A stretch of 64,000 bases of DNA from Bacillota bacterium (GTDB lineage: Bacteria > Bacillota > Clostridia > Saccharofermentanales > Fastidiosipilaceae). Under the pieces are notes generated by a model. It worked only from the letters and a program-made list of their open reading frames with translations, was not told the DNA's origin and did no database searches. The translations under genes and the position numbers were made by a program. Where the stretch lies: the NCBI GenBank assembly GCA_030057555.1, contig JASGUU010000020.1, positions 69,286 through 133,285 on the forward strand, read 5' to 3'. Every line of letters starts with the position of its first letter. The first letter of the stretch is position 1. This document shows, piece by piece, positions 1,807 to 58,111 of this stretch.

Positions 1807-1891
1807 TTGGGGTGTACGCCAAAATATCAGGAAACGGGTGAGCATGCCAGGGGGCGGTGGGTAAGGGAAAAAGGAGTTTGCGGACTTCAGA

Positions 1892-2104
1892 TGGTCAAAA
1901 CGAAGAGTTATCCAAAAAATAACTTGGAAAACTCGCCATCTTGACCACAAAGAGGCCGTTTCTGGTCAAAACGAGGAGTAATCCAAAAAACAATTTGGAA
2001 AACTCGCCATCTTGACCACAAAGGAGCTGTTTCTGGTCAAAACGAAGAGAAATCCAAAATACGATTTGGATTACTCGCTATCCTGACCACGAAGGGGCTG
2101 TTTC
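1892..2104. repeat. Three tandem 71-bp palindromic repeat units
   Basis: Units run 1892-1962, 1963-2033 and 2034-2104, all exactly 71 bp. Each opens with TGGTCAAAACGA and holds TTGACCA (or CTGACCA) about 50 bp later, so the outer arms are complementary. An inner arm pairs around CCAA/TTGG. The inner stem is kept although its bases change: unit 3 pairs AATCCAAA with TTTGGATT, unit 2 pairs CCAAA with TTTGG, and unit 1 pairs GAGTT and CCAA with TTGG and AACTC. That suggests selection for a hairpin. A partial fourth copy lies at 62375-62416 next to insertion-sequence remains. Confidence 0.85.
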
Positions 2105-2259
2105 TGGTCAAAGGGAGCGGCGAACCCCGGCCTTGTCTGGATCGCCTTTATCTAAAGGCACCAAAGCAGGAAAACCTGGATCGCTTCACAAGCTCCTTAA
2201 AAGCAACCAGGTCGTGTCTGTCACCTCGTCACTCGCTATTCTGTCGCGTGCCATTCACA

Positions 2260-2407
2260 TTTCAGCAGTTTGTGAGGCTGATCGCTACGCTGGCCATGGG
2301 AGAAGGGATCTTCCAAATGCCTGCAAGCAGGCTACGCTACAATTACGGTGTTTCAGGTGTTTGAGGAATGGCTCAGAAAAAGGTTTTACTCATCCCGACT
2401 AATATGA
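2260..2407 (+). pseudogene. Transposase C-terminal remnant (frameshifted)
   Basis: One frame from 2260 encodes FQQFVRLIATLAMGEGIF followed by a stretch ending RLRYNYGVSG. A one-base shift near 2352-2360 continues as VFEEWLRKRFYSSRLI and a stop at 2405. The pieces together look like the last ~50 residues of an IS4-type transposase, but the family is not certain. No upstream catalytic part is visible. The final ~50 bp are recognisably repeated at 62424-62471 beside another IS remnant, which supports a mobile-element origin. Confidence 0.4.
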
Positions 2408-2797
2408 CGTGCACTCGAGTCCCCAAGTCCACATCTCCCGGGAACAGTCCTCGCAACTGCGATGCACGAGGAGTATATCGAGAGCGCGGGTTAGAGGGAA
2501 GGCTGCAGACTGCAACCGCCTGGGCAGGAGCCGGAGCGATCCTGACCCACAAGCATGAATGCCTGCTGTTTCGAAGAGGCAGCTGAAAAGACAAGGCAAC
2601 AGCAGCCTCCTGATGCGCCAGGACTGCGAGCTGTATCAGCATTTTCCGACACAACCCGCATATTTGTCATGACGAATGCCATATGAGTGAAACAAATATT
2701 CAGCTTTCCTCCTTTCCATTTTGATCTGACCGGGTGAAGCATTCGTTTCCCCTGTAAAATACGTAAGAACCGATACATCAGCAAAGGAGGAGAAAGC
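2408..2797. other. Non-coding gap upstream of the acetyltransferase gene
   Basis: No convincing gene is present. Short open frames on both strands lack ribosome binding sites and resemble nothing known. The last 100 bp are AT-richer and probably hold the promoter of the downstream gene; an AAAGGAGG ribosome binding site lies at 2784-2791. Confidence 0.5.
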
Positions 2798-10356: not shown

Positions 10357-12870
10357 ATGAAGCCCGGGAGGTTAAGTTCTGTGCCCTCAAGTCCAGCCCT
10401 GCCTGCGAAGCCCCGCCTGAAGCCCTCTGCCTCCCTCCTCTGGCTCTCTCTTCCCCTCCTGCTCTGGCTCGGGCTCCTGCCCTTCGGCGACTGGGCCCCG
10501 GTCACGCTCGGCTGGTACTTTGCATCGATGCTCTTCGGCTTCGTGGCCCTGCCCCTCGCCCGCCTTCTCCTGCCGCGCCAGCCCGGCGCCCACTTCCTCC
10601 TCGCCCGTCCTCTCGGCCTCCTGCTCGCCGGCCTCGTCCTCTGGACAGCGGTCACGCTGGATCTCCTGCCCTACAGCCGCGCCTCCCTCGTCGCCGTCCT
10701 CGTCCTGCTCGCCCTGCTGCTGCGTCTCCCCGGGCTCAGACGACGGCAGTTCCGGCCACCGGCACCGCCCCTGACCGCCCTTCTCGGCGAGGTCCTTTTT
10801 CTCGCGGCCTTTCTCGCCTTCGCCTGGCTGCGCGGCATGCAGCCGGAACTTGATGGTCTCGAGAAATTCATGGACCTGGCCTTCCTCGCCTCCACCCTGC
10901 GCGGGCGCACGCTGCCGGCCCTGGATCCCTGGTTTGCAGGCTCGCGCATCAACTACTATGCCTTCGGCCAGTATCTCTGCTCCCTGCCCGCCCGCCTTCT
11001 TGATACGCCGCCGACGGTCGCCTACAACCTCGCCTTCGCCGGTGTCTTCGCCTCCTTCACGAGCCTCGCGGCCATCACGGGCTCCGCCCTCGTCGCTCTC
11101 GGCCGCCGCGGCCGTGCGGGACGCCTCGCGGGGGGCTTCCTCGCGTCCCTCCTCGCGACCTTCGGCGGCAACGGCCACGCCTTCTTCTACGCCCCCGGCA
11201 GCCCGGGCCGCCTGCTGACCCGGGCGGCCGCCCGCCTCGGTGTTCAGACCGGCGAACTCGAGCCCTATGCCTTTTCCGATGCCACCCGCTTCATCGGCTA
11301 CAATCCGCCGACGGATGACCGCACGATCCACGAATTTCCCTGGTACTCCTTCCTCGTCGGCGACCTCCACGCCCATCTCATCAACACGACAACGGTGCTG
11401 CTGGGCCTCGTCGTCCTCGTGGAGCTGGCCCGCTGCCTCCTCGCGCCCCGACCCGATCGCCGCCGCGCCGCCCGCCTGACGCTGGTGCTGGGCCTCACGG
11501 GTGCCGTCTCCGCCCTCGCAAACTTCTGGGACTATATCATCTATGCCGCCGTCTTCGGCCTTGTGCTCATGGCCCTCATGCTGCTTAAGCTGAAGCAGGG
11601 TCCCACGCCTCTCAGTGGCCTGAAAAGCTCTCTCGCCGTGCTCGCGCTGACCGTCACCCTCCTCGTCGTCCTCGAGCTCGCCGGCGCTCCCGACCTCGTC
11701 CCTCCCGCTGCAGTCGTCCTCACGGCGCTGCTCGCCTTTTTTGCCCGCCGCCGGCAGGATCCGGCCACCCTTTCCGCCTTCCTGCTGGCCCTCTGGTTCG
11801 CCGTGGCCCACCTCGGCGCCTGGACCTTCAGCCGGCAGTTCATCCCGATGTCGGATACGATCCGCACTGTGAGCAGCCGCACGCCGCCGTGGCAGTTTCT
11901 GGTCCTCTGGGGAACGCTGCTGCTGCTCGCGGCCCTGCTCAGTCTGCTGGCCGGGCGCACCGCCCGCGAGCCCCGGGCTGCCCTCCTGCTCTCTCTCTTC
12001 AGCGTGGCGGCTCTCTGTCTCCTGATCATCCCCGAGCTGGTCTATGTCGTTGATATCTACGGTGCCAGCTATGCCCGCGCCAACACCATGTTCAAGTTCA
12101 CCTACCAGGCCTTTATCCTCCTGACCATCGTGATCGGGGCCGGACTGGCTCTCGTCCTGCCGGTCCTGATAGAACGCTTCAGGGCCGGATCGGCGCGGAC
12201 GCAGCAGCTCCGTTCACTCGCGGCGGCAGTCGTCATCGTCCTGCTGGCCTCTCAGTCTGCGATCTATCCGCTCGGCTCGAGCGGGCTCTGGCTGCGCCGG
12301 CCCACACTCGCCGCCTGGCGGGGTCTTGACGGCGGAACCTGGCTCTATGACGACAGAAGCTACACAACGGACAGCGGCGGACAGCGCTACGCCTATCGTC
12401 TCGACGAAGACGCTGCCGTCATCGACTGGCTGAACAAAAACGAGACCCGGCAGGTCACCATACTCGAGGCCGCGGGACCCTCGTACACGCACTTTGCCCG
12501 CATATCCGCCTATACCGGCCTGCCCACCCTGATCGGCTGGGAAGTCCATGAGTGGCTCTGGCGCACGAGCCGCGAGGTGCCCAATGCCTGGCATCGTCTG
12601 GTCGAGCCGCGACAGGAGCTCGTCCGCTCCATCTATGAGACGACGGATCCGGTGGAGGCCGCCATCGATCTCGCGCGCTACGATGTCCACTACATTGTCA
12701 TCGGTGAACTTGAGCGCATCCGCTATCCCGGGCTCAATGAAAACGGCCTCGCCTCACTGGGCGAGACCGTTCTGCGGGAGGGCAATACCCGGCTCATCCG
12801 CCTGCCGGAGCCTCCCGGCTCCCAGCCTGTCAGCCAGGACCAGGACCAGAGCCAAGATCAGGGCCGGTAG
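10357..12870 (+). CDS. DUF2298 / Chlor_Arch_YYY-type polytopic membrane protein
   Basis: An 837-residue protein with more than ten predicted membrane helices. It carries the hallmarks of the DUF2298 (Chlor_Arch_YYY) family: a SRINYYAFGQYL stretch near 195, and TIHEFPWYSFLVGDLHAHL near 325, and AYAR-NTMFKFTYQ near 570. The C-terminal third is soluble, with a W-x-W-rich part and GLPTLIGWEVHEWLWR. The layout resembles GT-C-fold glycosyltransferases, so a role in transferring lipid-linked sugars at the membrane is plausible but unproven. The ATG at 10357 with AGGGG upstream is preferred to an upstream in-frame start. It is transcribed away from alaS, about 60 bp apart. The extreme C terminus is low-complexity (DQDQSQDQG). 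Confidence 0.78.
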   Translation: MKPGRLSSVPSSPALPAKPRLKPSASLLWLSLPLLLWLGLLPFGDWAPVTLGWYFASMLFGFVALPLARLLLPRQPGAHFLLARPLGLLLAGLVLWTAVTLDLLPYSRASLVAVLVLLALLLRLPGLRRRQFRPPAPPLTALLGEVLFLAAFLAFAWLRGMQPELDGLEKFMDLAFLASTLRGRTLPALDPWFAGSRINYYAFGQYLCSLPARLLDTPPTVAYNLAFAGVFASFTSLAAITGSALVALGRRGRAGRLAGGFLASLLATFGGNGHAFFYAPGSPGRLLTRAAARLGVQTGELEPYAFSDATRFIGYNPPTDDRTIHEFPWYSFLVGDLHAHLINTTTVLLGLVVLVELARCLLAPRPDRRRAARLTLVLGLTGAVSALANFWDYIIYAAVFGLVLMALMLLKLKQGPTPLSGLKSSLAVLALTVTLLVVLELAGAPDLVPPAAVVLTALLAFFARRRQDPATLSAFLLALWFAVAHLGAWTFSRQFIPMSDTIRTVSSRTPPWQFLVLWGTLLLLAALLSLLAGRTAREPRAALLLSLFSVAALCLLIIPELVYVVDIYGASYARANTMFKFTYQAFILLTIVIGAGLALVLPVLIERFRAGSARTQQLRSLAAAVVIVLLASQSAIYPLGSSGLWLRRPTLAAWRGLDGGTWLYDDRSYTTDSGGQRYAYRLDEDAAVIDWLNKNETRQVTILEAAGPSYTHFARISAYTGLPTLIGWEVHEWLWRTSREVPNAWHRLVEPRQELVRSIYETTDPVEAAIDLARYDVHYIVIGELERIRYPGLNENGLASLGETVLREGNTRLIRLPEPPGSQPVSQDQDQSQDQGR

Positions 12871-12900
12871 GGGCCTCCGGCATCCCGGGCCTCTCCTTTA

Positions 12901-13074
12901 CGACCTGGGTACAGTATGCAGTGCACAACAATCCGACTTATGCGCATCGGGGCCGTGTACAGGTTGCATATTTGCTCATAACAGCGTCCGAGTGGTGGTT
13001 TTCGGCTCAAAAATCCAGCTTGTACACAAGCTTTCGTGTACAGGTCGTTTTTTTGCTCACGACCCTCCCATGCA
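12901..13074. repeat. Dispersed 174-bp four-module palindromic element, copy 1
   Basis: The element starts with CGACCTGGGTACAGTATGCA, shared exactly with copy 2 at 24813. It holds four modules of about 26-29 nt in alternating orientation: plus 12921-12949, minus 12954-12980, plus 13004-13031, minus 13035-13062. The module consensus is TGAGCAAAAA, about five variable bases, then CCTGTACACG. It sits between convergent genes, past the stop of the DUF2298 gene and before the serA terminator. The organisation is like REP/BIME elements of other bacteria. Confidence 0.85.
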
Positions 13075-13097
13075 CTCACAGCCCGGCGGCAGAAAGA

Positions 13098-13134
13098 ACG
13101 GCCGAAACGCCTGTTTCGCGGACGTTTCGGCCGT
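13098..13134 (-). terminator. Rho-independent terminator of serA
   Basis: A perfect 12-bp stem (ACGGCCGAAACG / CGTTTCGGCCGT) with a 13-nt loop is followed on the minus strand by TCTTTCTG. It lies 20 bp past the serA stop. Confidence 0.8.
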
Positions 13135-13154
13135 TTGTCAGTGCAGAAGCCCGG

Positions 13155-14801
13155 CTAGCCCCTGAAATCCAGGAGGGAGACGTGGTTGACGCCCGAGAGA
13201 GCGCGCAGGTCTTCGAGCAGATCTTCGTCCGGCATCTGATCGATCGAGATCAGGGCCTCAGCGTGGGAGCGCAGCGATTTTCTCGCCCAGCGCATGTCGT
13301 CGATGTTGATCCCCCGCTCACCGATCAGTGAGCCGACGCGGCCAATGACACCGGGCACATCATCGTTGTGCAGGGCGAGCATGACCGGCGTGAATGTGTA
13401 GTCAACGGGGTAGCCGAAGAAGTCGACCAGAACCTCGCGCCCGCCGCCGATGACGGTGCCGGAGACCTCAAGTGCCCGGCCCTCGCGCTCGAAGCAGACG
13501 GTCAGCAGATCCGGGAAGCGGCCGTCCGGAACGCCACCCGCCTGGACTTCCTCGACCTCTTCGATGACGTCGATGCCCATGTCACGGATGTTCTGGCGCA
13601 CATTGACGAAGTTGATGCGGTGCTCGGAGATCGGGCGCAGGAAGCCCGTCAGCACTGACAGCGTCACGAGACCGTGTTCGTCGGACAGCACCCGGCCGGA
13701 ATAGCGGATGCGGATGAGGTCGACGGGCTTGTTTTCTGTCTGGAACCAGATCGAGCCAAGTTTCTCGGCCAGGCCAATCCAGGGTGCCATCTCGTCGAGA
13801 GAGCCTGCGATCGGGGGCAGGTTGACGGCAGGAACCAGTTCACCGTTCAGAACGCGTGCGATCTGCTCGGCGATCTGGGTCGACACCGCCTCCGAGGCCT
13901 CCCGGGTGGAAGCGCCGAGGTGCGGGGTCAGGAGGACATTATCCAGCTCCATCAGGCGATGCCGGAAGTTCTGGGTGCCGGGGGCGGCGGCGGTGTTCGG
14001 CTCGACGGCGAGCACGTCGAGAGCCGCAGCGGCGATATGTCCGGACGCGAGGGCATCGTAGAGAGCATCCTCATCGACGATGCCACCGCGCGAGGCATTG
14101 ACCAGGCGGGCACCGGGCTTCATCAGGGCGAGTTCGCGGGCGCCGATCAGGTTCAGAGTCTCCTTTGTCTTCGGCGTATGCAGTGTCAGCAGGTCTACCT
14201 GCTGCAGCAGTTCATCGAGACTGGAGGCGCGCCGGATACCGAGGCGGTCAAAGCGCTCCTGATTGACATACTGGTCATAGGCTACGACATCCATGCCCAG
14301 GCCGGCGAGCTTCCGCGCGACGATGGCGCCGATGCGGCCGAGGCCGATGACACCGGCTGTTTTCCCCTCAAGCTCGATGCCGACGAGGAGATTTTTCCGG
14401 AAATCATCCTCATGGAAGCGGCGGTCGGCCTGCGGGATGTTGCGGCAGATGGCCATGGCCAGCGCCACCGCAAACTCGGCGGCGGCCATGGTGTTGGCGT
14501 CGGGCGTGTTGCAGACCACGATGCCGTTTTCGGTCGAGGCCTGGAGATCGATGTTGTCAACGCCGGTGCCGGCGCGGCCGACGACACGCATGCGCGTGGC
14601 CTTTTCGATCAGACTGCGGTTGACCTTCGTCGCCGAGCGGACGATAAGGCCGTCATAGTCGCCGATGATGGCTTCGAGTGCGGCGGCGTCAAGCCCCAGC
14701 CTGACATCCACCGTCACACCGGCCTTCTCAAGGATCTCGATACCGGCAGGCGAGAGTTTCTCGCTGATGAGAACGCGTGGAGCAGCCACTTTCCCGGTCA
14801 T
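13155..14801 (-). CDS. serA: D-3-phosphoglycerate dehydrogenase
   Basis: A 548-residue NAD-dependent enzyme that oxidises 3-phosphoglycerate, the first step of serine synthesis. The N-terminal substrate-binding domain is followed by the Rossmann motif GVIGLGRIG near residue 150, and the catalytic Arg/Glu/His set is in the usual places (NASRGGIVDEDAL; LTPHLGAST). An intervening allosteric domain follows, and an ACT domain ends the protein (HNDDVPGVIGRVG), so serine feedback is likely. Length matches the long SerA type. Its ATG overlaps the stop of the aminotransferase gene by 4 bp (ATGA), so the two are translated together. A strong terminator follows. Confidence 0.96.
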   Translation of the reverse strand: MTGKVAAPRVLISEKLSPAGIEILEKAGVTVDVRLGLDAAALEAIIGDYDGLIVRSATKVNRSLIEKATRMRVVGRAGTGVDNIDLQASTENGIVVCNTPDANTMAAAEFAVALAMAICRNIPQADRRFHEDDFRKNLLVGIELEGKTAGVIGLGRIGAIVARKLAGLGMDVVAYDQYVNQERFDRLGIRRASSLDELLQQVDLLTLHTPKTKETLNLIGARELALMKPGARLVNASRGGIVDEDALYDALASGHIAAAALDVLAVEPNTAAAPGTQNFRHRLMELDNVLLTPHLGASTREASEAVSTQIAEQIARVLNGELVPAVNLPPIAGSLDEMAPWIGLAEKLGSIWFQTENKPVDLIRIRYSGRVLSDEHGLVTLSVLTGFLRPISEHRINFVNVRQNIRDMGIDVIEEVEEVQAGGVPDGRFPDLLTVCFEREGRALEVSGTVIGGGREVLVDFFGYPVDYTFTPVMLALHNDDVPGVIGRVGSLIGERGINIDDMRWARKSLRSHAEALISIDQMPDEDLLEDLRALSGVNHVSLLDFRG

Positions 14802-24263: not shown

Positions 24264-24764
24264 ATGAAACTGCAGGAATCTGCCGAGAACTATCTGGAAA
24301 ACATTCTGATATTGAGCATGGAACAGGATGAAGTGCGCTCGATTGATCTCGCCAATGCCATGAGTTTCTCCAAACCCTCCGTCAGCCGCGCCGTCCACCT
24401 GCTGAAAGATGGCGGTTATCTCAATATTGATCCTGACGGGCTGCTGAAACTGACCCCGCGGGGCGAGGCCTATGCCGTCCGGGTCTACCAGCGCCATCTG
24501 GCACTGATGTGCTGGCTCGAAAGCCTCGGTGTATCCGAGGCGGTCGCCGCCTGCGACGCCTGCCGCATGGAGCATGTGCTCTCGGATGAGAGCTTCGCGG
24601 CGATCCATGATGATCTCGAACGCCGGGGAGTCCTGCATCCGGAGGCCGATCCGGAATCGCTGCGGAAGTGGCACCGCGCCATGATCGAGGGCAGCGATGC
24701 GGCTCTGAAGGAAGAAATCAAGGCGCGTTGCGAGGACCGCCAGCGGGACGTTCCGGATAATTGA
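24264..24764 (+). CDS. DtxR/MntR-family metal-dependent transcriptional regulator
   Basis: A 166-residue regulator with an N-terminal winged helix (ESAENYLENILIL, then SIDLANAMSFSKPSVSRAVHLL as the recognition helix region) and a dimerisation domain carrying metal ligands (CRMEHVLSDESF near residues 95-107). Such proteins repress iron or manganese uptake genes when loaded with metal. No C-terminal SH3-like domain is present, as in MntR-type short members. Whether it senses iron or manganese cannot be decided. No transporter of its own is adjacent; the corrinoid uptake operon is convergent to it. Confidence 0.9.
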   Translation: MKLQESAENYLENILILSMEQDEVRSIDLANAMSFSKPSVSRAVHLLKDGGYLNIDPDGLLKLTPRGEAYAVRVYQRHLALMCWLESLGVSEAVAACDACRMEHVLSDESFAAIHDDLERRGVLHPEADPESLRKWHRAMIEGSDAALKEEIKARCEDRQRDVPDN

Positions 24765-24812
24765 GCCACTAACGGCTGAGAAGCTTCTCCTTACGAAGAA
24801 AACAGCATTTTT

Positions 24813-24986
24813 CGACCTGGGTACAGTATGCAGTGAGCAAAAAAGCAGCCTGTACACGTCCCGCTGCGCACAACCCGAAATACTGCTACAAAATTCGCTT
24901 CGTGTGGTGGTTTCAGGCTCAGAAACACAACTTATGCGCAGTTGTCCGTGTACAACTTGAATTTCTGCTCACCGACCCTCTATGCA
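24813..24986. repeat. Dispersed 174-bp four-module palindromic element, copy 2
   Basis: Begins with the same 20 bp as copy 1 (12901). Modules: plus 24833-24858, minus 24862-24889, plus 24916-24941, minus 24947-24972. The middle spacer GTGTGGTGGTTT and the end CGACCCTC-TATGCA also match copy 1. It lies between the convergent DtxR-type gene and the adenosyltransferase-like gene. The best single module reads TGAGCAAAAAAGCAGCCTG followed by TACACG. Confidence 0.85.
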
Positions 24987-25100
24987 GGAGGCCAGGCACG
25001 ATGCCGGCCGTGACCGCCATCGCCTGCTTCCGGCTTTGTCCCTCTCGGCCGGACCGGCCCGGGGTTCACATCTCACCGGATGCTTGTCGTTTCTCCACCA

Positions 25101-25748
25101 TTAAGAACTGGGAACGTCCCGCCGGGAGTCTGCCTCAGTCTGAGGGTAATTGCGGCTGACAAAGCGTCGCTCGGGCACGCCAAACGACAGATTGACCAGG
25201 AGTGAGAGGGCGAAGATGTAGGCCGCGAGGCGGCTGAAGAAATCGATGAGGCGGGGATCTACCGTGCTGCCCGCATGATGCGCCCGATAGAGCAGACGCA
25301 GAACCTGTTTCGTATCGCAGCGCACGATATGGGCGGCCGTCGCCGCCTCATGGCCCACCGTCACAACAAACTGCTTCTGGCGCTCTCCCAGGATGTTCTC
25401 GGCAGCGAGGGTGATTTCATCGAGCCATGCGATCTCTTCCTCCGTCAGCCGGCAGGGAGTGCGCAGTCCCGCATTCGCGTGATAGCAGAGTTCTGAAAGG
25501 GTCTCGAGATCCGCCGGGGCGGCCGCGAGCCACTGGCAGGCGGCTGCCGTGCCCGGTTCGACAGCCACAGTCAGCGGCTGCCTCCCGACCAGGCAGCGGC
25601 GCAGCAGGGCGGCCAGCCAGCCGAGGCTGCCCGCGAGGCGGTCGCTCGCGATCTCATAGTCGCAGCGCAGGTCCTCCGCCGCTTCCGGGAGAAAGGGATA
25701 GGCCTCCCAGCGGCTGCGATAGGGCCTGTTCTCCTGGTCTTTCATCAC
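25101..25748 (-). CDS. Cobalamin adenosyltransferase-like protein
   Basis: A 215-residue protein at the end of the corrinoid uptake operon, overlapping btuD by 4 bp. Its C-terminal half (HEAATAAHIVRCDTKQVLRLLY, then LIDFFSRLAAYIFALSLLVNLSFG) resembles the helical-bundle PduO-type ATP:cob(I)alamin adenosyltransferases in the position of the R/D-rich helix and the last helix, but the N-terminal ATP-binding motif is not clearly recognised. Adenosylation of imported corrinoid would fit its place. The call rests on both weak sequence similarity and context. Confidence 0.5.
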   Translation of the reverse strand: MMKDQENRPYRSRWEAYPFLPEAAEDLRCDYEIASDRLAGSLGWLAALLRRCLVGRQPLTVAVEPGTAAACQWLAAAPADLETLSELCYHANAGLRTPCRLTEEEIAWLDEITLAAENILGERQKQFVVTVGHEAATAAHIVRCDTKQVLRLLYRAHHAGSTVDPRLIDFFSRLAAYIFALSLLVNLSFGVPERRFVSRNYPQTEADSRRDVPSS

Positions 25749-28775: not shown

Positions 28776-28827
28776 CGTGCCGAATGCATGCATCCGGATC
28801 ACGCGCGTCTCGCCCGCCGAAAGACGT

Positions 28828-29035
28828 TTGGCCAGACATCGGCAGGTCTCCTGGCTCACATGATGAGGATGATCCGGCCTTCCCAGACACAGAGGTCCAG
28901 TGGCATCATCGGTATCCAGCATGCTCACAGTAGCGGGGGCTGCCGCGGATTCGCACCGCGTTCCCTATTCTATGTCGCCGGCTCGGAAGCCGACGCCATC
29001 ACCGAAGTCTCGATTCAGTTGTCCCTGCCGCCTCT
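28828..29035 (-). ncRNA. Cobalamin riboswitch
   Basis: The minus strand carries the B12 box AGCCAGGAGACCTGCC (28841-28856) and, upstream of it, the conserved GCCACTGG (around 28909-28916) and GCGGGGGCTGCC-type segments with paired arms. The order and spacing match the cobalamin aptamer. It precedes btuF-btuC-btuD and a terminator hairpin, so binding of a corrinoid should switch off uptake. Outer limits are approximate. Confidence 0.92.
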
Positions 29036-56730: not shown

Positions 56731-56900
56731 GGGCCCGGTGCAGGGAATGTTCCTGAGCGAAAACCAGCCTGTACACGAAAACACAGATGCAAATCATTTT
56801 TTGCTGCCGATAGCCGGTGCCCATACGGCACTTTGTGCGATTATTCGAGCTGTACACAGCGATAACACGCACGAGTCCTGCTTCTGCTTGTATACCCTGC
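56731..56900. repeat. Dispersed four-module palindromic element, copy 3 (diverged)
   Basis: Four modules in the same alternating order as the copies at 12901 and 24813: plus 56753-56777, minus 56784-56809, plus 56833-56861, minus 56866-56893. The first reads TGAGCGAAAACCAGCCTG then TACACG, close to consensus; the flanks have diverged. Lies between the convergent AlaX-type gene and the anchored beta-propeller-like gene. Confidence 0.75.
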
Positions 56901-56941
56901 CCGGATAATCCCGAATGCTGGATTTCCCGGGGAAAATCCCG

Positions 56942-58111
56942 TCAGGGTTCGTTTGCGGCCAGCTTCAGGGCGGAGAGGCCGGTAGGCAGGCCGTTGTCGT
57001 CACCCGAGCCGATGTAGAGTGTCGTGGCATCGGGCGAGAGGGCCAGAACCCGGCAAACTTCGCCATCACCCTCCTCTCCAGTCCCGTGGAGATGGAACCA
57101 GCGTTCGAGGGGCCGCAGGTAGAAGGTTGTGTCGTGGACGGCGACGAGGCCGTTCTGTACATAAAGCCGGGGTTCGATGCCTGTCATCAGGTCGGTCATC
57201 GCGACGAGGGCTTCCTGCCCTTCGCGGCTGCGATCCGGTATCGCAAAGAGCTGCCATTCAAACTGCTCCGTGCTGCGGTCCAGGCGGTGGAGGGCGAGAG
57301 CGTAGAGCTCGGAAGCCAGCGACTGGGCCGTCCTATACCAGCGTGCGCCGTCGACATAGGACCAGCCAAGAGGCACTCCGGACCAGATCTTTGCGAGCTC
57401 CCAATCCGCGACGCGGCGGCAGGCGGGTTCACGGCGCTCGATACTGCCGTCTGAGAGGGCGACGGCGAGCCAGGCCACGGGCTTCGAGCTCCCGGGCTGG
57501 GTCACCAGCTCGGTGGTGTAGAAGTGATCGGCAGCATCAAGCTCAAAACCGTAGTAGCCGGCCTCGGATTCGAGGATACGGCGGCGCTGGCCGCTCGCGA
57601 TCTCGCAGGCGTCGACAGCGAAGACCTCATCTCCCCCTTCCCCGTACACGATCCAGCGGTCGTTCGCAGCGGCCTGCAGGCCAAATTCGGCCTCGTGGAT
57701 GATCTCCGCGGCAGCGGTCCGGGGGTCCAGGATGGCAAGAGAGATGGGGTTCAGGAGGACGATACGGCCGTCAGGGAGCACATGGAGAACGGCAAAGCCA
57801 CGCCGAACGAAAGCTTCCGGCAACTGTACGGGAGTGGCGACGGACGGATCGAGTTCGATTGCGGTATCCAGCCACAGCCCCGGCGGCTCCGGACTCTCCG
57901 TCGGCGGCGCTGTGTCCCCGGACGGCTCCTCGACGATGCCGGCCGCGTTCGTCGCAGCTGCTTCCGTTCCCTGTGCTCCAGGCTGTGTTCGCCGGCTGAC
58001 GACCAGCAGGACAACAAGCAGAAAGAGGACGAGAAGCGCGAGCGGGAGCAGCAGACGATTGAGATCGAACGGCTGCGGAGGGCGTTTGGGATCCGGCCTG
58101 AAATGGCTCAT
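56942..58111 (-). CDS. Membrane-anchored extracytoplasmic protein, beta-propeller-like
   Basis: A 389-residue protein with one N-terminal helix (LLLPLALLVLFLLVVLLVV, ~19-40), a Pro/Thr-rich linker and a ~300-residue extracytoplasmic domain of repeated short strands (GRIVLLNPISLAILDPRT, DRWIVYGEGGDEVFAV and similar), suggesting a beta propeller. No family is recognised. It overlaps the C39 protein gene by 4 bp and is last in the Smr-UDG-C39 operon. Confidence 0.6.
   Translation of the reverse strand: MSHFRPDPKRPPQPFDLNRLLLPLALLVLFLLVVLLVVSRRTQPGAQGTEAAATNAAGIVEEPSGDTAPPTESPEPPGLWLDTAIELDPSVATPVQLPEAFVRRGFAVLHVLPDGRIVLLNPISLAILDPRTAAAEIIHEAEFGLQAAANDRWIVYGEGGDEVFAVDACEIASGQRRRILESEAGYYGFELDAADHFYTTELVTQPGSSKPVAWLAVALSDGSIERREPACRRVADWELAKIWSGVPLGWSYVDGARWYRTAQSLASELYALALHRLDRSTEQFEWQLFAIPDRSREGQEALVAMTDLMTGIEPRLYVQNGLVAVHDTTFYLRPLERWFHLHGTGEEGDGEVCRVLALSPDATTLYIGSGDDNGLPTGLSALKLAANEP

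Follow-up and report, generated by a model that had tools for sequence, protein, structure and literature searches.

The window, meaning the whole 64-kb stretch of DNA that was analysed, contains three copies of a dispersed, four-module repeat (Table 1). Copy 1 is framed by the stop codons of two convergent genes (GTAG at 12867-12870 and CTAG at 13155-13158), copy 2 lies at a pair of iron-dependent-repressor-like and cobalamin-adenosyltransferase-like genes, and the end-like sequence of copy 3 immediately follows the TGA stop of the gene at 56942-58111. A cobalamin riboswitch is also present in the window (28824-29021, minus strand; Rfam RF00174, 122.6 bits). The three copies had been reported in a preliminary description of this DNA, and a consensus search of the 64-kb window recovered all of them, with E values of 6e-22 for copy 1, 2e-38 for copy 2 and 1e-8 for copy 3; the last was reassigned to the minus strand (56904-56735). 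The head common to copies 1 and 2, CGACCTGGGTACAGTATGCAGTG, and the four alternating modules were borne out, the modules by a family consensus built from aligned copies, and so was the dispersed, genomic, modular and palindromic character of the repeat, whose location is intergenic. What had been described as a 174-bp element is a genuine repeat, but it constitutes only the core of a larger element with terminal inverted repeats (TIRs, CGGGACKTTCCGG), which at copy 2 spans 24744-25121.

Table 1. Positions of the repeat copies, their parts and one further repeat element in the window.
Feature	Position	Strand	Remarks
Family B TIR element (not the family of the core)	1811..2416	-	TIR of GGGTGCACGTCA type; 71-bp hairpin tandem array at 1892-2112
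Copy 1, whole element (inferred)	12871..13154	+	Between TAG stops of two convergent genes
Copy 1, core with four modules	12897..13074	+	Consensus match
Copy 1, module M1	12921..12946	+	
Copy 1, module M2 (inverted)	12954..12978	-	
Copy 1, module M3	13004..13027	+	
Copy 1, module M4 (inverted)	13035..13060	-	
Copy 1, terminator-like hairpin	13018-13045		Followed by TTTTTTT
Copy 2, whole TIR-bounded element (378 bp)	24744..25121	+	TIRs CGGGACGTTCC..GGAACGTCCCG
Copy 2, left TIR	24744..24756	+	15-mer profile score 21.9 of 24.9
Copy 2, core	24805..24992	+	Consensus match, BLAST
Copy 2, right TIR	25109..25121	-	15-mer profile score 19.8
Copy 3, diverged core	56735..56904	-	Consensus match
Copy 3, TIR-like end CGGGATTTTCCCC	56929..56941	-	Weak match

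The core was aligned over 64 full-length copies of about 188 bp, 57 of them at less than 80% mutual identity. It measures 174-188 bp and consists of a head (CTGGGTASAGTATGCAGTG), module M1, an inverted M2, a middle, M3, an inverted M4 and a tail (CACnAnCCCTTTATGCA). The modules are about 25 nt each, with the family consensus GTGAGCAAAAATTCGACTTGTGCGCA for M1, CGTGCACAACTCGAATTTTTGC for M2, GGCTCAAAAATTCAACTTATACACG for M3 and CGTGTATAAGTTGAATTTTTGCTCAC for M4, and the middle between M2 and M3, CACAAAATCCGCTGCGAGTGGTGGTTT, is conserved and asymmetric, although shorter in one subgroup. Adjacent modules pair as hairpins that are preceded by an A-tract and followed by a T-tract on both strands. 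Covariation was assessed by permuting the 3′ arm among copies. In the non-redundant set, pairing between M3 and M4 exceeded the permutations (z 3.8), the excess for M1 and M2 was weak (z 1.9), the non-adjacent control pair M1 and M4 displayed none (z 0.3), and the A- and T-tracts gave no surplus pairing. The M3/M4 hairpin thus covaries within copies, although the RNAalifold consensus fold of the core retained almost nothing. Rfam had no match at the element, and a known RNA family was rejected on that basis.

Terminator-like hairpins, defined by a stem of at least 8 and at least 5 T of 8, were counted in the 64 cores and in dinucleotide shuffles of them. They occurred on the plus strand in 44% of the cores (9% of shuffles), on the minus strand in 34% (3%), on at least one strand in 64% (11%) and on both strands in 14%. 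Within the window, copy 1 has five such sites against 0.4 in shuffles, and copy 2, with one site against 0.4, is hardly above its control. Judged from its sequence, the core may form a bidirectional terminator or a 3′-end structure; of these, termination in both directions is plausible and a role at RNA 3′ ends possible.

A profile search of the whole genome and its relatives, as had been suggested for this repeat, revealed many further copies in two genomes: that of the window itself (G000; 2.9 Mb in 90 contigs) and that of a sister species (G001; Bacillota bacterium MAG87_KBP, JASGUW01), the sole other genome of the genus compared. BLAST found 52 matching segments in G000, and the profile found 87 non-overlapping hits, including partial ones, at E<1e-3, which corresponds to about 85 copies; with many contigs ending near copies, this is probably an underestimate. 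G001 gave 22 profile hits within the fetched loci only, i.e., more than 20 copies. There was no match at E<=1e-4 in 116 other relatives. Exact matches to the head elsewhere, in Chlorobiota, Gammaproteobacteria, Saprospiraceae and one Clostridiales genome, were taken as chance because each genome had a single hit, and viral contigs had no exact match to the head, so a phage origin was rejected. An ordinary insertion sequence (IS) or a local duplication was likewise rejected, since copies occur on most of the larger contigs with differing flanks and few share longer arms. The repeat family is real, sizeable and restricted to one genus of uncultured Bacillota, which comprises two species.

In full, the element extends over about 380-650 bp and comprises a TIR, a variable arm, the four-module core and a second TIR. 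The arms often contain a ACGGCCGAAACGC..GCGTTTCGGCCGT hairpin and are common to six copies out to about -190 bp. A TIR profile trained on twenty ends, two of them from copy 2 itself, detected a convergent pair around window copy 2. It missed the TIRs of copy 1, whose ends at 12871 and 13154 we infer. When G000 was searched with the TIR pattern at no more than one mismatch, 70 TIR-like places were found, 18 of which lay within 300 bp of a core where 1.5 were expected (p 1e-14), an excess to which circularity contributes, as about a dozen such copies had supplied the pattern; five of the six exact hits were near a core, and the reversed pattern gave 42 hits across the whole of G000. Only about one copy in four has recognisable TIRs; those of window copies 1 and 3 are weak or absent, and the copies that bear TIRs are spread across the diversity of cores. 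Their left ends read CTRG-CGGGACTTTCCGG and their right ends GGAAAGTCCCG-CTAG or close variants.

Copy 2 was compared with the sister species, where the same gene pair is conserved. The homologous stretches on either side are 43 bp apart in G001 and 424 bp apart in the window, and the difference of 381 bp is within one base of the 378-bp element and a 4-bp duplication taken together. Both neighbouring genes now end inside the element. Copy 2 is thus an insertion polymorphism, absent at the orthologous G001 gene pair, and this is the one clear empty site. The tetranucleotides just outside the TIRs are CTAG and CTAG in G000 C47 and around a TIR pair of G001 C21, CTAG and CTGG in C28, and CCAG and CCGG at window copy 2; the one copy that has a clear empty site is thus flanked by two differing tetranucleotides.

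Insertion context was examined in 752 kb of fully read sequence, 26% of the genome. The 21 copies in this sample were all intergenic, with no gene overlap. Eleven of the 20 classifiable copies lay between convergent genes, compared to 65 of 472 junctions (p 9e-6; 0.0009 when weighted by intergenic length), although gene calling relied on a custom codon-usage caller and may have misjudged single contexts. In 9 of the 20 element-facing gene ends above the 95th percentile of background, the TIR was at offset 0 from the stop codon. CTAG followed by CG occurred at 10 of 109 element-facing stops and at 7 of 477 background ends, and some copies adjoin stop codons contained in CTAG or CTGA. Two convergent genes can share four bases at their stop codons precisely when those bases form a YTAR tetranucleotide, and YTAR-like targets are known for IS5 and IS701 elements. 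A transposase that targeted YTAR would therefore produce a convergent bias without selection for function.

Conservation gave two different pictures. Between paralogues, the core was 93-97% identical and the arms 55-79% in two of the closest pairs (one pair: 97% against 75-79%), which suggested strong purifying selection on the core. The orthologues contradicted this at three loci, where the core was 69-74% identical and neighbouring 50-bp windows, mostly coding, reached 80-96%; a fourth orthologous locus was about 92% identical throughout. The low core identity at the three loci is evidence against strong selection there. Taken together, the paralogue and orthologue results are a better fit to gene conversion, which homogenises copies within a genome, than to strong per-site selection, and gene conversion is the simpler reading.

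Several other intergenic repeats share the genus with this element. The family B element of Table 1 is an object of the same kind as the present element and belongs to a family of TIR elements about 600 bp long, with ends GGGTGCACGTCA..GTCGGGA, conserved arms of about 300 bp and 85 bp, and 71-bp units that number one to six per locus at 25 loci in the 752-kb sample; it has no special preference for convergent genes. Further hairpin repeats are families C (71-72 bp), D (60-61 bp), E (70 bp) and F (92 bp). Families B and D were searched for in 56 relatives from outside the genus and found in none. In G001, several unrelated hairpin repeats of 60-71 bp form intergenic arrays (C163:30463-32023, C121:1-800, C93:1-900 and C106:10400-11400) at or near the positions that correspond by orthology to window copies 1 and 3; the flanks homologous to those of these two copies are on different G001 contigs. 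At L226 (G001 C21:8966-10210), a family B array sits within an A-type TIR pair that is flanked by CTAG on each side, and the neighbouring called genes end at the TIRs. In G000 C14, G001 C237 and G001 C174, a family D array and an A-type TIR are no more than about 100 bp apart, and at C14 the element also has the arm hairpin of core-type elements; these few loci suggest an exchange of cores between elements. One could extend this to a single TIR platform with exchangeable hairpin cargo, in which CGGGACKTTCCGG ends and the arm hairpin would carry either the four-module core or the unrelated 60-bp tandem hairpins of family D, would insert at convergent stop codons, and would give the genus mobile bidirectional terminators or insulators, a scheme that we regard as quite unlikely.

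Some copies have themselves been invaded. An IS with the end GTAAGCGCTCAAAAAACGGCATCTCG interrupts L108, L113, L137, L029 and L148, at G000 contig ends, and closely flanks L096; IS66-like ends start GTAAGCGC. A second IS, with the end CTTGTATATTGCAGTCGGCC (nine genome matches), is inserted at TTTTTG^CT inside the modules of L145, L100, L147 and L246-L253. Its CT junction is reminiscent of the IS110 elements, among which are some that target repetitive extragenic palindromes (REPs).

We consider that the repeat is probably the hairpin-rich core of a non-autonomous TIR element (MITE) mobilised in trans, with core hairpins that possibly act as terminators or stabilisers. The element is short, is present in many copies, has no transposase gene, and carries TIRs on a subset of copies, with a complete pair in copy 2. 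A DDE-type transposase with a YTAR/CTAG-like target would mobilise it, insertion into the overlapping stop codons of convergent genes would be harmless, and the core hairpins, with their A-tract, stem and T-tract on both strands, could as a side effect work as bidirectional terminators or 3′-end stabilisers. The 19 DDE_Tnp_1 loci of G000 and G001 had no matching TIR pair, and these transposases were rejected as the parent; among the other TIR hits examined (0-1 mismatch), none was evidently paired around a transposase in these incomplete genomes. The transposase partner may have been lost, may lie in an assembly gap, or may come from a family outside DDE_Tnp_1. A plain MITE does not predict that the core should be more alike than the arms between paralogues. 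That greater conservation speaks for a core that is itself mobile or gene-converting, a REPIN-like hairpin doublet that exists primarily as core only and resides in a TIR element only sometimes; most copies indeed have no recognisable TIR, and in window copy 1 just 26 bp separate the gene end from the core. Such a core is nevertheless unlikely to be the primary form, as core-only ends are unmarked, with neither a duplication nor a tag tetranucleotide, TIR-bearing copies are scattered over the core diversity, and a Y1 transposase was not found in G000.

A structured RNA or regulatory site selected locus by locus, such as a bidirectional terminator between convergent genes whose mobility is only historical, would account for the convergent bias, the M3/M4 covariation, the terminator-like hairpins on both strands and the excess conservation of the core over the arms. 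We rate it as very unlikely, given that the core has no consensus RNA fold and no Rfam match, orthologous cores fall to 69-74% at three loci, copy 2 barely exceeds its shuffles in terminator-like sites, and convergent bias is also known for plainly parasitic repeats (PMC3049150). The preliminary description had likened the repeat to REP/BIME elements and had suggested that, if genomic, it could be mobilised by a RAYT-like transposase or serve RNA stability. The likeness stands as far as alternating inverted modules in intergenic, downstream locations are concerned, and fails in transposase, unit size, tag and TIRs. No Y1_Tnp gene was found in G000, and G001 has a single broken fragment with four stop codons (L275, C163:17297-17530). 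The unit is 188 bp, compared to the 20-40 bp of a REP, a palindrome with a GTAG or CGTC tag at one end (PMC3733652), and no conserved GTAG or CGTC is found at the module ends in the alignment of 64 copies. This repeat has TIRs and a complete copy, matched by an empty site, that represents a clean insertion of TIR length, and REPs mobilised by RAYTs have neither. There is next to no chance, then, that RAYT mobilises it.

The repeat had been thought to have no described counterpart in this type of organism. A literature search for similar repeats in Clostridia found nothing, but at phylum level the claim fails, for the pneumococcal BOX, RUP and SPRITE repeats are comparable elements of Bacillota that form stem-loops, are enriched between convergent genes and are regarded as mainly parasitic (PMC3049150). 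They are its nearest known kin, by analogy in kind. BOX, of Streptococcus pneumoniae and S. suis, is a dispersed, modular, intergenic stem-loop repeat that is enriched between convergent genes, is thought to be parasitic and sometimes provides the stop codon of a neighbouring gene (PMC3049150). It resembles the core in kind, and its number of boxB modules varies, whereas the core has a fixed plus-minus-plus-minus set with a conserved middle and variable tandem arrays are found in the separate families B-F. SPRITE, a pneumococcal element resembling a Rho-independent terminator, is similarly dispersed, terminator-like and strongly convergent (PMC3049150), but it is one long hairpin, while the core has two hairpins and TIR-bounded arms. 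MITEs such as RUP, CIR and QMITE2 share TIRs, the lack of genes, intergenic location and internal palindromes, and truncated QMITE copies without TIRs look like REPs (PMC10969869); the core element differs in that its parent transposon was not found among the loci searched. REP, BIME and REPIN elements likewise lie in non-coding DNA downstream of genes and consist of modules in alternating, inverted orientation (PMC3116915, PMC3733652), and the core element is unlike them in module design, size, its TIRs and the lack of a RAYT.

In a bacterium without RAYT, alternating palindromes that look like REPs can thus form the core of a TIR element, a caution against classifying such repeats by appearance alone. 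If insertion into stop codons through a CTAG target is true, it would provide a simple cause for the convergent bias of many bacterial repeats, for which selection for function would not be needed. The filled and empty sites in two species make this mechanism of stop-codon insertion testable.
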